DNA from: Clostridia bacterium
Lineage (GTDB): Bacteria > Bacillota > Clostridia > UMGS1840 > HGM11507
Reading direction: 5' to 3'
Assembly (NCBI GenBank): GCA_017414505.1
Contig: JAFQLQ010000032.1
Span: 1-64,000 of the forward strand
DNA length: 64,000 bases
Shown: positions 2,552 to 46,095 of the stretch, piece by piece
Numbering within the stretch: the stretch's first letter is position 1
Layout of the letters: each line of letters begins with the position of its first letter
The notes under the pieces: model-generated
What the model saw: the letters and a program-made list of their open reading frames with translations, nothing else
What the model was told of the DNA's origin: nothing
Database searches by the model: none
Made by a program: the position numbers and the translations under genes

Positions 2552-4705
2552 TTAATTATAAATACTTACGGTTTGAGTGCTTTCGTTCCAGTCTACTGTA
2601 TAACCAAGTACTTCTGCTATTGCGCGGATAGGAACAAGCGTTCTTCCATCAATTGTTACCGCAGGAGAATCAAGCCATTCTGTGCCGGCATTTCCGCCGT
2701 TTAAAACAGCTCCTGCATCCTCCCAACGCATAGAATCGCTTCCAATCTGAATATAGCAGGTTCTTTCAACCATTTTCACCTTATTGTAGGAAGTAATAAC
2801 TGCAGTATTGGTTGATTCATCCCACCATACGTCACCACCTAACGCTTCTGTAACGGCTCTTATGGGAATCATTGTTCTGCCGTTGATAACCTGAGGTGGA
2901 ACATCGAAATTAACGTAGTTTCCGTTTACAGTAACGTCAATTGGCTTTGCATTATCAATTACAATATATTTACTCAGTGAATAAGCTGTATTGCCGGCAG
3001 TATCTTCTGCAATAACAAAAAACTCATTATTACCTGAATGCAGTGCAGATTTCTGAACTGTAGCTTCAACACTATTTCCGTATGAAGAAGTTATTTCAAT
3101 GCCCTCATAATACAAAGTTACTTTCTTTATTCCAACGTTATCATAAGCAAATCCCTGTATAACAATGTCATCATCACAATCATCTCCATTCAGAGTAACT
3201 GCATTTCTATCCAGAACGTTTTGCCACATAATTTTTACTTCATAAGGTGGTTCTTTATCATAAGATGCATTGTTTGTATTTTCATAAAGTGTAGCGTAAG
3301 TAAAAAAATCAGTTTCATATCCGTTTACTTTAAGCATAAATTTTCTGTAACCTGTTTCATTAATTCCAAATCTGCAAGTCCAGTATCTTCTGTCGCCGGA
3401 ATCTTCGTATGTAAGGCTGTAATTTTCTTTCAGATATGAATATGGTATTTCGTGCCATTTAGTATCATCCGGCTTATCACCGCAAATACTTATTTCAGTA
3501 ACATCCATAGATGTTACAGCCTCAAATTCAAAAACATCACCTGTCCATTGTTCCTTGTTGATATTTGCTTTTCCCTCATTTGGTGTCTGCGGACTTGTTA
3601 TATTACGCATATCAAAATCATAAACGGTATATTCATTGGGAGTTGCAGGTTGATTTGCAGTTAGCATTATACCACGAAGTGTTGGATTGCCATATTCGTT
3701 TCTTTGAATAAGTGCTTTTGTAGGTTTATTGTTTATAGCTTCAAAGTTCACGTCACCAATATTAACCGAAATTTCATTTCCTATATTATTATCTATTTGG
3801 TTTCCTTTGGAATTTGTAACATTATTAATTTTGTATTTATAGCTCCCATTTTCATTTGTTAAATAGCCCTCTGCTATAAACGCATTAAAATGCATAGTAA
3901 GAAGTGTTTCATATCTTCCGCTTTGTCCGTATCCGTTGCATATTTCTCCATCTTCATCAGAAGTATAAATCAATCTGTTCGCATCTCTCTGTCCGGATGA
4001 AATTTCATACTGAGACAAACAAAGAGGTACTGCTAAAGCATTGTTAGCTATGGTAAGAAATTGTATGGCTGTTGTATCAGTATCTGAACTGTATTCTACT
4101 CCGTCAGTTAATCCAATTTCCTCAGCTACTGAAATATATCCATTTGGAAAACTTCCGCGCTTTTCGGCAATTGTTCTGTAGCCTAAAAGAGTTACAAAAT
4201 CCTTTAAAGTATTTTGAACTTTATTAGAAGCATTGTAATTTTCCAATCCTTCCGGCATTCTAATTAAATTTAACTCTGTTGCTGACGAGATACGATAATC
4301 CCACCCTTCAGGCTCCATTTCTTGGTCAAGCCATCTATATGAAATACTATTTAATATATTTTCTTCTCGTTCATTTAAAAAGCTTTGAAACTGATTACCT
4401 ATAAATCCATACATTGCAGAACCCATTTCTTTTATTGTCATATAACTTTCGGGAAAGGAAATCATTTGAAATCCCAATAAATCAAACTTTTCATTTCTGT
4501 TAATCAAACTAAAAGTTGTAAATTTATCCAAAAAATTTTTCTCATTCCTTGAATACACTATAGTAAGATTTATTCCATTAACTTCCTTTTCAACCTCTTT
4601 AAAATAATAAATTTTTCTATCGTTATCCGCTGCACTAACGCTCATTGGTAATACTGAAATTAAAATTACAGCAATCATAATTAAGCTTAAAACTCTTTTT
4701 TTCAT
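2552..4705 (-). CDS. secreted protein with copper amine oxidase-like N-terminal domain at its C-terminus
   Basis: Signal peptide at residues 1-25 (ends VSAAD). The N-terminal 350 residues are unrecognised. Residues about 378-475 carry the WTGDVFEF-type module shared with the downstream gene. An Ig-like segment follows (DNVGIKKVTLYYEG...AEDTAGN). The last 130 residues are a copper amine oxidase N-terminal-like domain (PF07833 type), with the paired signatures NGRTMIPIRAVTEALG and DGRTLVPIRAIAEVLG, each followed by W-DEST or W-NEST. In Clostridia this domain is a non-catalytic surface module, probably involved in wall attachment. RBS AAAGGAG precedes the ATG. First gene of a two-gene minus-strand operon. 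Confidence 0.75.
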   Translation of the reverse strand: MKKRVLSLIMIAVILISVLPMSVSAADNDRKIYYFKEVEKEVNGINLTIVYSRNEKNFLDKFTTFSLINRNEKFDLLGFQMISFPESYMTIKEMGSAMYGFIGNQFQSFLNEREENILNSISYRWLDQEMEPEGWDYRISSATELNLIRMPEGLENYNASNKVQNTLKDFVTLLGYRTIAEKRGSFPNGYISVAEEIGLTDGVEYSSDTDTTAIQFLTIANNALAVPLCLSQYEISSGQRDANRLIYTSDEDGEICNGYGQSGRYETLLTMHFNAFIAEGYLTNENGSYKYKINNVTNSKGNQIDNNIGNEISVNIGDVNFEAINNKPTKALIQRNEYGNPTLRGIMLTANQPATPNEYTVYDFDMRNITSPQTPNEGKANINKEQWTGDVFEFEAVTSMDVTEISICGDKPDDTKWHEIPYSYLKENYSLTYEDSGDRRYWTCRFGINETGYRKFMLKVNGYETDFFTYATLYENTNNASYDKEPPYEVKIMWQNVLDRNAVTLNGDDCDDDIVIQGFAYDNVGIKKVTLYYEGIEITSSYGNSVEATVQKSALHSGNNEFFVIAEDTAGNTAYSLSKYIVIDNAKPIDVTVNGNYVNFDVPPQVINGRTMIPIRAVTEALGGDVWWDESTNTAVITSYNKVKMVERTCYIQIGSDSMRWEDAGAVLNGGNAGTEWLDSPAVTIDGRTLVPIRAIAEVLGYTVDWNESTQTVSIYN

Positions 4706-4805
4706 TTTCTTTTTTCTCCTTTACTATTGTGTTGTTTGTGTTGGTATTTTTTCATTTTTTATTGCGGATTTTACTCCCTCGATCAGTTATGATGTCTAGT
4801 CCTCC

Positions 4806-4878
4806 CCGTCATCCCGAGCGTAGTCGCGGGATCTCATTTTGCCTTTGCTCAGATTCTTCGGCAAGCTCAGAATGACGG
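4806..4878. repeat. palindromic intergenic repeat
   Basis: A 73-bp imperfect palindrome bounded by CCGTCAT and ATGACGG. The inner arms are CCCGAGC / GCTCAGA, and GGATCTC / AGATTCT lies nearer the centre. The wording (GTCATCC.GAGCG...AGATTCTTCGGC...TCAGAATGAC) resembles repeats scattered between genes in many gut bacteria. It is more GC-rich than its surroundings. Between this repeat and 4705 there is only AT-rich sequence plus the promoter region of the minus-strand operon. Confidence 0.6.
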
Positions 4879-4957
4879 ATTAATAAAATATCGTTTTTGC
4901 CGTAATCCAAAATAACTTCCGGGAGTCGCTTATCCTCCTTTTCAAAATATTTCTACA

Positions 4958-5129
4958 ATAAAAAATGCGCAGCTCTCGAAGCTACGCATAAAAAACGCAA
5001 AGCTCCGATTGCTGCTAAACAAATTTCCAATACCAACACAATAGTATGCGAAAATAGAGCCTGCATTTTTATCATAAGACGAAAATGCACACTATTGTGT
5101 AACAGTATTTAATTGGAATTTGTTTAGCA
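4958..5129 (-). ncRNA. structured small RNA, copy 1 (novel family)
   Basis: The minus-strand RNA would start at about 5129. Reading 5' to 3': P1 5' arm 5129-5112; P2 5' arm 5100-5091 (ACACAATAGT, a perfect 10-bp pair with 5045-5036); P3 5089-5082 with 5069-5062 (TGCATTTT/AAAATGCA); a GGCTC segment just 3' of P3; the P1 3' arm 5031-5013 (18 pairs with one bulge); GAGCT around 5004, which can pair with GGCTC as a pseudoknot; then a perfect-class terminator stem 4989-4965 (ATGCGTAGCT / AGCTGCGCAT with one C-A mismatch) followed by TTTTT. No open frame of note runs through it. Family not recognised. Confidence 0.7.
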
Positions 5130-5134
5130 TATTT

Positions 5135-5163
5135 ATTATACAGCAATACTTTGAATTTGTAAA
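5135..5163 (-). promoter_or_regulatory. sigma-A promoter of small RNA copy 1
   Basis: On the minus strand: -35 TTTACA (5163-5158), exactly 17 bp, then -10 TATAAT (5140-5135). The predicted start falls on the first base of the P1 arm. Confidence 0.7.
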
Positions 5164-5227
5164 TATAATATTTACCGTCAAAGAGGAAAAGTTTATTCTT
5201 AAATTCACTTCCTTTCCAATTTTTGCA

Positions 5228-5399
5228 ATAAAAAATGCGCAGCTCTCGAAGCTACGCATAAAAAATGCAAAGCTCCGATTGCTGCGACACAAGTTTTACA
5301 ATACCAACACGAATAGTATGCAAAAAAAGAGCCTGCATTTTTATCAAAATGATAAAAATTACACACTTTCGTGTTGTTTCAGTATTAACTTGTATCGCA
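5228..5399 (-). ncRNA. structured small RNA, copy 2 (novel family)
   Basis: Same architecture as copy 1 and in tandem with it. The core segments (AAAAATGCAGGCTCT, GCAGCAATCGGAGCTTTGC) and the terminator hairpin (5259-5235) are identical, but the arms differ and stay complementary. P1 is TGCGATACAAGTT with AACTTGTGTCGCA, one mismatch. P2 is AACACGAA with TTCGTGTT. P3 is ATTTTTATC with GATAAAAAT, 9 bp. Downstream of the T-run lies a relic translation start (AAAGGAAGTGAATTT) resembling the start of the ribbon-helix-helix gene next to copy 3, but no intact gene follows. Confidence 0.7.
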
Positions 5400-5405
5400 A
5401 AAAAT

Positions 5406-5434
5406 ATTATACTATATTTTTTCCAATTTGTAAA
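5406..5434 (-). promoter_or_regulatory. sigma-A promoter of small RNA copy 2
   Basis: On the minus strand: -35 TTTACA (5434-5429), 17 bp, -10 TATAAT (5411-5406). Same geometry as copy 1. Confidence 0.7.
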
Positions 5435-5485: not shown

Positions 5486-7231
5486 TTAACCTAAGCGAGC
5501 TTCAAGGTTGTTGTACTGTTCTTTAATGCCTTCGGGAAGCTTGCTTCCGAATTTATCAAAGAATTCTTTAATACCCTTAAGTTCTTCTTTCCAGATTTCT
5601 TTATCAACTGTAAGAATTTCTTTAAGTGTATCCATATCAATATCAAGAGCATCAATATTAATATCTTCGGGCTTGGGTAGATAACCAATTGCTGTTTCAA
5701 CAGCGTCAGCTTTACCTTCGCAACGGTCAACAATCCAGTTAAGAACTCTTAAATTGTCACCGAAACCGGGCCATAAGAATTTCTTGTTTTCATCCTGTCT
5801 GAACCAGTTAACATGGAAAATTTTGGGAGGATTGGGAATCTTTTTACCCATTTCCAGCCAGTGAGCAAAATAGTCGCCCATATTGTATCCGCAGAAGGGA
5901 AGCATAGCCATTGGGTCACGTCTTACAACGCCAACTGCACCTGCAGCTGCAGCAGTTGTTTCGGAAGCCATTGTAGCACCGATAAATACGCCGTGGTTCC
6001 AATCGTATGACTGATATACAAGCGGAGCTGTTTTAGCACGTCTTCCACCAAATACGATAGCAGATAGCGGAACACCGTTTTTATTTTCAAACTCGGAAGA
6101 AATACAGGGACACTGACGGGCAGGAGCTGTAAATCTGGAGTTGGGATGAGCACCTTTAATACCGGAATCGGGAGTCCATTCGTTACCCAACCAGTCGGTA
6201 CCGTGAGCAGGAGCTTCGGATAAGCCTTCCCACCAAACTGTTTTTTCGTCTGTTAAAAGAACGTTTGTGAAGATTGTATTTTTCTTTGTTGTAGCAAGAG
6301 CATTGTAGTTTGTTTTTTCGCTGGTACCGGGAGCAACACCAAAGAAACCGTTTTCGGGGTTCATAGCCCAAAGTCTTCCGTCTTCACCAATTCTTAACCA
6401 TGCGATATCGTCACCAACTGTCCAAACCTTATATCCTTCAAGAGCCTTGGGAGGAATAAGCATAGCCAGGTTGGTTTTACCGCAGGCACTTGGGAATGCA
6501 GCTGCAATGTAGTGAACTTCGCCCTGAGGATTTTCAAGTCCTAAGATAAGCATATGTTCAGCCATCCAGCCTTCCTGTTTACCAAGATAGCTTGCAATTC
6601 TAAGAGCAAGACATTTTTTACCAAGAAGAACGTTTCCGCCGTATGCAGAGTTGATAGACCAGATTGTGTTATCTTCGGGGAACTGAACAATATATCTTTC
6701 TTCGGGATCAACATCTTTTTTAGCGTGTAAGCATTTTGTAAAATCTCCATCTTCACCAAGCTCTTCGATAGCGTCTTTACCAACTCTTGTCATAATATCC
6801 ATATTAAGAACAACATAGATACTGTCTGTAAGCTCGATACCTACTTTGGAGAACGGAGAACCCTTAACACCCATGATAAAGGGAATAACATACATTGTTC
6901 TTCCTTTCATGGAACCGTCGTACAACTTGCTTAATTTAGCATAAGCATCTGCGGGAGCCATCCAGTTGTTTGTAGGACCTGCATCTTCTTCCTTGGAGGT
7001 ACAGATGAAAGTTCTGTTTTCAACTCTGGCAACGTCGTTCTCAGCTGTTCTGTGAAGATAGCAGCCGGGAAGCTTCTCCTGGTTTAATTCAATCATTTCG
7101 CCGGATTCAACGGATTCTTTTCTCAAAGCATCAAGCTGAGCCTGACTGCCGTCAATCCAAACAATGTTGTCGGGCTGGCATAGCTTTGTCATTTCGTCAA
7201 GCCATGTCAGAACTTTTTTGTTGTTTGTCAT
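5486..7231 (-). CDS. pckG: phosphoenolpyruvate carboxykinase (GTP)
   Basis: Catalyses the GTP-dependent conversion of oxaloacetate to PEP and CO2, or the reverse. In anaerobes it often runs in the carboxylating direction toward fermentation products. The GTP-type kinase-1 motif FPSACGKTN sits near residue 275, in contrast to the ATP-type G-x-G-K-T loop. Other family blocks seen are YVIPFIMG near residue 115, FFGVAPGTSEKTN, and FGGRRAKTAPLVYQS. Length 581 residues fits the family. A TTG nine bases upstream overlaps the Shine-Dalgarno, so the ATG at 7231 with GGAG nine bases before it is the start. Single gene with its own terminator. Confidence 0.95.
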   Translation of the reverse strand: MTNNKKVLTWLDEMTKLCQPDNIVWIDGSQAQLDALRKESVESGEMIELNQEKLPGCYLHRTAENDVARVENRTFICTSKEEDAGPTNNWMAPADAYAKLSKLYDGSMKGRTMYVIPFIMGVKGSPFSKVGIELTDSIYVVLNMDIMTRVGKDAIEELGEDGDFTKCLHAKKDVDPEERYIVQFPEDNTIWSINSAYGGNVLLGKKCLALRIASYLGKQEGWMAEHMLILGLENPQGEVHYIAAAFPSACGKTNLAMLIPPKALEGYKVWTVGDDIAWLRIGEDGRLWAMNPENGFFGVAPGTSEKTNYNALATTKKNTIFTNVLLTDEKTVWWEGLSEAPAHGTDWLGNEWTPDSGIKGAHPNSRFTAPARQCPCISSEFENKNGVPLSAIVFGGRRAKTAPLVYQSYDWNHGVFIGATMASETTAAAAGAVGVVRRDPMAMLPFCGYNMGDYFAHWLEMGKKIPNPPKIFHVNWFRQDENKKFLWPGFGDNLRVLNWIVDRCEGKADAVETAIGYLPKPEDINIDALDIDMDTLKEILTVDKEIWKEELKGIKEFFDKFGSKLPEGIKEQYNNLEARLG

Positions 7232-7409
7232 AATAGACAACTCCTTTCAAAATCTTCTGCTTTTATGAGCAGAAATTTATGTAAATATTTTATTTAAAAC
7301 TTTTACCGACTATATTATACAACAAAATTTTAAAAAATAAAAGTATTTTTTGAAAATTTTAATAATTTTTTTAAAAATTGTTACGCTTACCAATAAATTA
7401 AAAAAAATG

Positions 7410-45680: not shown

Positions 45681-45896
45681 CTAATACAAATCAATATTCT
45701 TCTTCTGAGTAGTTTCATCAGAGGTTATATAACAATGTTTTAAAGAATGTTCAACAAGTGTATTTATAAGCTCATCTCTTGTGAAATCAATTAGTTCTGC
45801 AAGTCTTTCAATTTCTTCCACCAGATGCTTGCTGAACCTTACAGGGACATAAACGTTTGTGCCTTTTTTCAGATATAATGGATGACCGTATTCCAT
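45681..45896 (-). CDS. ribbon-helix-helix (CopG/Arc-like) DNA-binding protein
   Basis: 71 residues. A beta strand (TNVYVPVRFSKHLVEEIE) followed by two helices (LAELIDFTRDELINTLVEHSLKH) matches the ribbon-helix-helix fold, as in type II antitoxins and plasmid repressors. The ATG at 45896 has AAGGAG eight bases before it; an in-frame GTG overlaps that site. Right upstream, separated only by the T-run, is structured small RNA copy 3, whose terminator ends seven bases before the RBS. No toxin gene is adjacent. Confidence 0.75.
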   Translation of the reverse strand: MEYGHPLYLKKGTNVYVPVRFSKHLVEEIERLAELIDFTRDELINTLVEHSLKHCYITSDETTQKKNIDLY

Positions 45897-45914
45897 AAAA
45901 TTCACTCCTTATAA

Positions 45915-46061
45915 TAAAAAATGCGTAGCCGGAGCTACGCAGAAAAACACATAGCTCTTGCTGCTAAACAATTCATGCATATAAGCGTGCGTGAAAATAG
46001 AGCTTGCATTTTTACCATAAGATAAAAATACACGCCAATATGCGTAATAAATTGTTTAGCA
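45915..46061 (-). ncRNA. structured small RNA, copy 3 (novel family), leader of the RHH gene
   Basis: 147-nt version with the same order of parts. P1 is TGCTAAACAATT / AATTGTTTAGCA, perfect. P2 pairs at 46032-46043 with 45974-45990 (GCGTG/CACGC plus a second run). P3 is ATTTTTATC / GGTAAAAAT, 9 bp with one U-G. The AGCTC segment after P3 pairs fully with GAGCT after P1; copies 1 and 2 have GGCTC there, so A-U changes to G-U and pairing is kept. The terminator stem TGCGTAGC / GCTACGCA is perfect, then TTTTTT. It ends directly before the RHH ribosome site. Confidence 0.7.
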
Positions 46062-46066
46062 CGTTT

Positions 46067-46095
46067 ATTGTATCACATTTTTTAAATAATTACAA
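46067..46095 (-). promoter_or_regulatory. sigma-A promoter of small RNA copy 3
   Basis: On the minus strand: -35 TTGTAA (46095-46090), 17 bp, -10 TACAAT (46072-46067). Confidence 0.6.

Follow-up and report, generated by a model that had tools for sequence, protein, structure and literature searches.

The window, that is, the whole stretch of 64,000 nucleotides analysed here, carries three copies of a leader RNA on its minus strand: copy 1 at 5129-4958 (172 nt), copy 2 at 5399-5226 (174 nt) and copy 3 at 46061-45914 (148 nt). Copies 1 and 2 form a tandem with a spacing of about 270 nt. An earlier note on this DNA had described three minus-strand units, and all three are present; its size of 172 nt for both tandem members holds for copy 1 but not for copy 2, and the third unit, placed at 45915-46095, was found there on the expected strand but with the boundaries and length given above. 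The tandem does not lie in a gap before pckG, as had been stated: pckG (5486-7240, minus strand) ends before the copies, which sit downstream of its 3' end and of its own terminator (5471-5443) and are flanked on the other side by a gene for a secreted protein (2552-4705). The promoter spacing of exactly 17 bp was recovered in all three copies (TTTACA/TATAAT twice, TTGTAA/TACAAT once), and so were the intrinsic terminators: those of copies 1 and 2 by a terminator scan (4989-4965 and 5259-5235; three terminators found in the scanned stretch, 0.5 expected), and that of copy 3, at about 45941-45921, by direct reading of the sequence.

The features are listed below, with bit scores from covariance model R1, which was built from 18 copies found by BLASTN. 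P1, P2 and P3 are the local helices; P4 is a long-range helix in which the 3' strand of P3 together with the adjacent CUC (AAAAAUGCANNCUC) pairs with the switch strand S3 (GAGNN.UGCAUUUUU), located 3' of P1.

5406-5434, minus strand: promoter of copy 2 (TTTACA, 17 bp, TATAAT)
5226-5399, minus strand: leader RNA copy 2, the upstream tandem member (121.4 bits over 5399-5261; terminator 5259-5235)
5329-5343, minus strand: 5' strand of P4, copy 2
5261-5276, minus strand: switch strand S3, copy 2
5135-5163, minus strand: promoter of copy 1 (TTTACA, 17 bp, TATAAT; the -10 element ends 5 nt ahead of P1)
4958-5129, minus strand: leader RNA copy 1, from P1 at +1 to the terminator U-run (116.9 bits over 5129-4991)
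5117-5129, minus strand: 5' strand of P1, copy 1, pairing with 5025-5013
5077-5089, minus strand: 5' strand of P3, copy 1, the strand that S3 mimics
5057-5071, minus strand: 3' strand of P3 plus CUC, copy 1, the 5' strand of the approximately 15-bp helix P4 (TAAAAATGCAGGCTC)
5013-5025, minus strand: 3' strand of P1, copy 1, pairing with 5129-5117
4991-5006, minus strand: switch strand S3, copy 1 (GGAGCTTTGCGTTTTT), able to pair with the P3 3' strand and CUC (P4) or with the terminator 5' arm (antiterminator)
4965-4989, minus strand: intrinsic terminator hairpin, copy 1, followed by a U-run to about 4958
2552-4705, minus strand: probable target of copies 1 and 2, a secreted protein of 717 aa with a Cu_amine_oxidN1 domain (Pfam E-value 2.8e-29), starting 254 nt past the copy 1 terminator
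45914-46061, minus strand: leader RNA copy 3 (94.9 bits over 46061-45943)
46000-46014, minus strand: 5' strand of P4, copy 3 (TAAAAATGCAAGCTC)
45943-45957, minus strand: switch strand S3, copy 3 (GAGCTATGTGTTTTT)
45684-45896, minus strand: target of copy 3, an orphan protein of 71 aa, with its start codon 19 nt past the terminator U-run

The Pfam scan of the 71-aa protein gave no match; its gene stands between the leader and a gene for a protein of 1182 aa. Between copy 1 and its probable target, positions 4800-4880 hold a probable interspersed repeat (CATCCCGAGCGTAGTCGCGGGATCTC...TTCTTCGGCAAGCTCAGAATGACGG), and an AAGGAGG motif resembling a ribosome-binding site (RBS) occurs 3' of the copy 1 terminator with no ORF behind it.

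The three copies are part of a larger set. BLASTN detected six convincing places in the source genome, and 17 of the 60 relatives searched gave matches as well; the covariance-model search of genomes, which the earlier note had proposed, found further homologues with covarying base pairs, raising the number in the source genome from the three claimed to about ten (ten places by R1). All nine genomes of the order were positive, with 1-12 copies each, as were 84 of the 391 sampled genomes of the class, with at most eight candidates scored per genome. Among 398 sampled genomes of the phylum only the source genome was positive, and none outside the class. The exact core pattern was matched in 92 stretches of genome contigs; the 80 matches listed were all from metagenome-assembled genomes of gut Clostridia (Oscillospiraceae, Monoglobus, 'Ruminococcus sp.'), most of them recovered from the gut of ruminants, deer or rabbits, and two human-faeces records also match. 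The same pattern gave no match in the viral contigs scanned, nor did the plasmids searched yield one. A viral origin was rejected. Two records deposited as 'Bacteriophage sp.' do match, but MT835845.1 carries bacterial chromosomal genes (the C-terminus of a Clp ATPase, hydrogenase-type proteins and a YicC-like protein), and MT837627.1 carries an integrase and other mobile-element-like genes, its leader preceding a gene for a zinc-ribbon protein.

The structure was analysed with 109 model hits representing 103 distinct sequences, and covariation was measured by pair counts with shuffled and slid controls. A first pass with MAFFT and RNAalifold recovered P1 and the terminator hairpin only. In the alignment fitted to the P1-P3 model, 95.2% of the cells of these helices are paired and 22 of 28 pairs change on both sides; the covariation score is 0.357 against 0.135 ± 0.005 for shuffled alignments (reached in 0 of 500) and 0.037-0.087 for slid ones, and while such fitting favours the model, the difference from the controls is still very large. 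The claim that the arms of P1, P2 and P3 change with pairing kept is thus borne out, and the strong covariation over the homologues supports a selected structured RNA on the minus strand. The pseudoknot of 5 bp described earlier was right in its CUC:GAG pairing, but this is one end of P4. For P4, 93.8% of the cells are paired and 7 of 14 pairs change on both sides; P3 and P4 share one strand, and the invariant A-U pairs count for neither. By folding energies that leave out the pseudoknot, P4 (median 15 bp) has -15.5 kcal/mol, compared with -4.3 with shuffled S3, and it is more stable than P3 (-7.3) in 99 of 99 copies. Altogether, covariation among the aligned homologues shows P1, P2 and P4, a portion of P3, and the pairing of the antiterminator described below, and the 5' portion of the leader is a conserved, structured and covarying domain of the aptamer-like kind. 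One may speculate that the near-invariant U-A pairs of P3 and the conserved adjacent strand UAUUUUCG would suit a U-A-U triple helix.

Variants of the leader were also seen. In a second subtype, found near type 1 copies (L046 at about 1012, L055 813-930, L057 1669-1791, L183 4953-5070), P3 reads GCAUAC...GUAUGC and the toehold pairing is, as read from the sequences, wholly exchanged to CUUUGGU:ACCGAAG; the C23 copy of the source genome and L061 look like a further variant. Tandem copies occur at several loci of the homologue set. Three copies, two of them in the source genome (L032 on C4, L212 on C50, and L054), have no near ORF. Just past the leader terminator of each, and immediately behind the terminator of a convergent gene, lies a 3' piece of another copy in inverted orientation, made up of the P1 3' strand and S3-like sequence. 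A second, convergent copy may once have stood there and left these pieces.

The promoter -10 element ends 5 nt before P1 in 82 of 102 homologues, and an RBS with a start codon follows within 40 nt in 61 of 99 (62%), against 7% for randomly placed positions and 2% when the opposite direction is read; most often the start codon stands 18-21 nt past the U-run. The remaining 38% lack a close start codon, some being first in a tandem, some having a farther gene and some none. At copies 1 and 2, the leader and the gene look as if they had been separated by an insertion. Judged by this gene context, in which the RNA with its promoter and terminator is followed at an almost constant distance by RBS and start codon, the predicted unit is mostly a 5' leader lying just before the RBS and start codon, and the term stand-alone RNA gene used in the earlier note should be given up. 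In 65% of the targets, against 19% of other ORFs of the same loci (p = 7e-12), the N-terminus is hydrophobic and has a basic residue close by; the predicted targets are enriched for putative signal-peptide proteins. Among 67 targets, Pfam identified LRR_5 in 13, Cu_amine_oxidN1 in five and dockerin in four, along with SLH, CHAP, peptidase M23 and others, and of the 59 near targets, 18 do not exceed 90 aa. Small Cys-rich proteins of one family (MIIDGPTGIELIPGNGGKDCPGNGENGNECCCDECNYLCCC...) recur as targets (L045, L046, L055, L057, L183, L193, L195); a Pfam scan of two members gave no match. The target genes are diverse and point to no ligand.

The 3' part of the leader, included in the RNA gene by the earlier note, has the features of a conditional expression platform. 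An intrinsic terminator follows the RNA in 100 of 103 copies. The 5' arm of the terminator offers S3 an alternative partner (median 10 bp, -11.6 kcal/mol); this pairing occupies at least five paired bases of the arm in 99 of 99 copies, and the 3' part folds as the antiterminator in 75 of 99 by minimum free energy. The cognate antiterminator pairing exceeded that with re-dealt partners (0 of 2000 permutations); for 48 non-redundant copies (<70% identity), the counts were 0 of 5000 for the antiterminator, 0 of 5000 for P4 and 1 of 5000 for the short pseudoknot. Such re-dealing controls take away the effect of relatedness only in part. An intrinsic terminator is thus combined with a conserved, mutually exclusive antiterminator. 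Since S3 pairs with either the P3 3' strand and CUC or the terminator 5' arm, it has two exclusive partners, as does the P3 3' strand, and P3, P4, the antiterminator and the terminator would compete.

From these pairings, a switching mechanism may be proposed. Transcription would begin at P1, and P1, P2 and hairpin P3 would form before S3 emerges. S3, a mimic of the P3 5' strand, would use the CUC beside P3 as its toehold and drive that strand out, yielding P4, with P1 as the other stem of the pseudoknot; this order of events is inferred from the positions of the strands. With S3 locked in P4, the terminator would form and transcription would stop (OFF), whereas with P3 intact a free S3 would pair with the terminator 5' arm and the gene would be read (ON). 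P4 with the terminator is the most stable end state by energy, and hence we lean slightly towards a default OFF state, with a signal stabilising the P2/P3 domain, over the opposite sign. We give about even odds that the RNA senses this signal directly, by binding a small molecule or ion.

Hence, on the strength of sequence comparison, we consider it likely that the RNA is a cis-acting, riboswitch-like transcription attenuator forming the mRNA 5' end for secreted and small accessory proteins of gut Clostridia. Other readings were weighed against it. In one of them the attenuator is retained, but what switches it is an RNA-binding protein (antiterminator or terminator) or a second RNA rather than a small molecule that the leader binds. 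Firmicutes do have attenuators under protein control (LicT/SacY-RAT, LoaP), the extended conserved strands rich in A-U might serve for protein binding, and nothing in the analysis points to a ligand pocket; yet the element is larger and more structured than the RAT or LoaP hairpins, a covarying multi-helix domain precedes the platform, and no regulator gene recurs among the targets seen, so that we regard such control as rather unlikely. A leader-peptide attenuator was rejected: there is no conserved short ORF, and about half of the leaders lack an SD-preceded ORF of at least 8 aa.

The reading of the earlier note, a trans-acting small RNA gene of approximately 150-175 nt with incidental neighbours, would account for an RNA bracketed by its own promoter and terminator and for copies without a near ORF. 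It appears improbable given the closeness of RBS and start codon in 61 of 99 copies against 7% at random, with the mode at 18-21 nt past the U-run, the strong secretory bias of the targets, and an antiterminator that covaries with the terminator of its own copy, which a constitutive terminator would not need. More improbable still is a mobile promoter or stabilising 5' cassette that does not switch, even though promoter, RNA, terminator and RBS move as one block many times per genome, inverted 3' fragments adjoin some copies and P1 at +1 could shield the 5' end: a conserved terminator between promoter and gene, together with a covarying competitor helix, would be pointless for constitutive expression.

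The attenuator reading was set beside known systems. Clostridial genomes carry the c-di-GMP-I riboswitch (RF01051) several times, ahead of diverse genes, and in this it resembles the leader RNA, but its fold is different and RF01051 has no match in the window; separate RF01051 riboswitches are present in 11 of 27 carrier genomes. Six carriers (G006, G007, G025, G253, G274, G288; 92-97% estimated completeness) gave no GGDEF hit, and therefore c-di-GMP made by GGDEF enzymes is an unlikely ligand. A T-box was rejected as well, the Rfam scans giving no T-box hit. Like transcription-termination riboswitches, e.g. ZTP/pfl, a transcriptional ON switch (PMC7337938), the leader places a structured pseudoknot domain before a mutually exclusive terminator and competitor helix at the mRNA 5' end, and its tandem arrangement is that of tandem riboswitches (PMC9481103). 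However, it matches no Rfam riboswitch in sequence or structure, and its targets do not make up a single metabolic pathway but belong to the secretome or are small orphan genes. Gut-1 RNA (RF01706, PMC2864571) likewise comes from uncultured gut bacteria, and one homologue locus, L141, has both, with two Gut-1 RNAs (4262-4191 and 5971-5904, minus strand) upstream of the leader at 3945-3815; Gut-1 is, however, a separate family of 77 nt, matching 4262-4191 and not the leader.

The earlier note had not recognised the family, and Rfam agrees: Rfam 15 at gathering score gave no match to the leader RNA in the window, nor over the element in 18 homologue loci, and nothing credible appeared at a permissive threshold (E ≤ 5). 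The literature search, which covered the main text of papers, found none on the leader RNA; it may stand unnamed in supplementary lists, e.g. among the 3161 candidates of PMC8040213. The leader is probably a new RNA family and, by its sequence features, probably a transcription-attenuating orphan riboswitch. Rather more tentatively, it could represent a novel riboswitch class that is plentiful among uncultured Clostridia of the gut, in which a signal and toehold strand displacement switch on secreted, surface and small orphan proteins genome-wide, possibly as a control of the secretome that is of the second-messenger type but does not depend on c-di-GMP.

The leader RNA is found in about one fifth of the sampled genomes of its class, in up to twelve copies each, yet it is absent from Rfam, and its exclusive pairings offer a switching mechanism that is clear and can be tested. 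Should the RNA prove to be a riboswitch, its ligand would be the signal by which gut Clostridia control their surface and secreted proteins, and the discovery of that ligand would give access to a regulatory system of bacteria from the guts of herbivores and humans.
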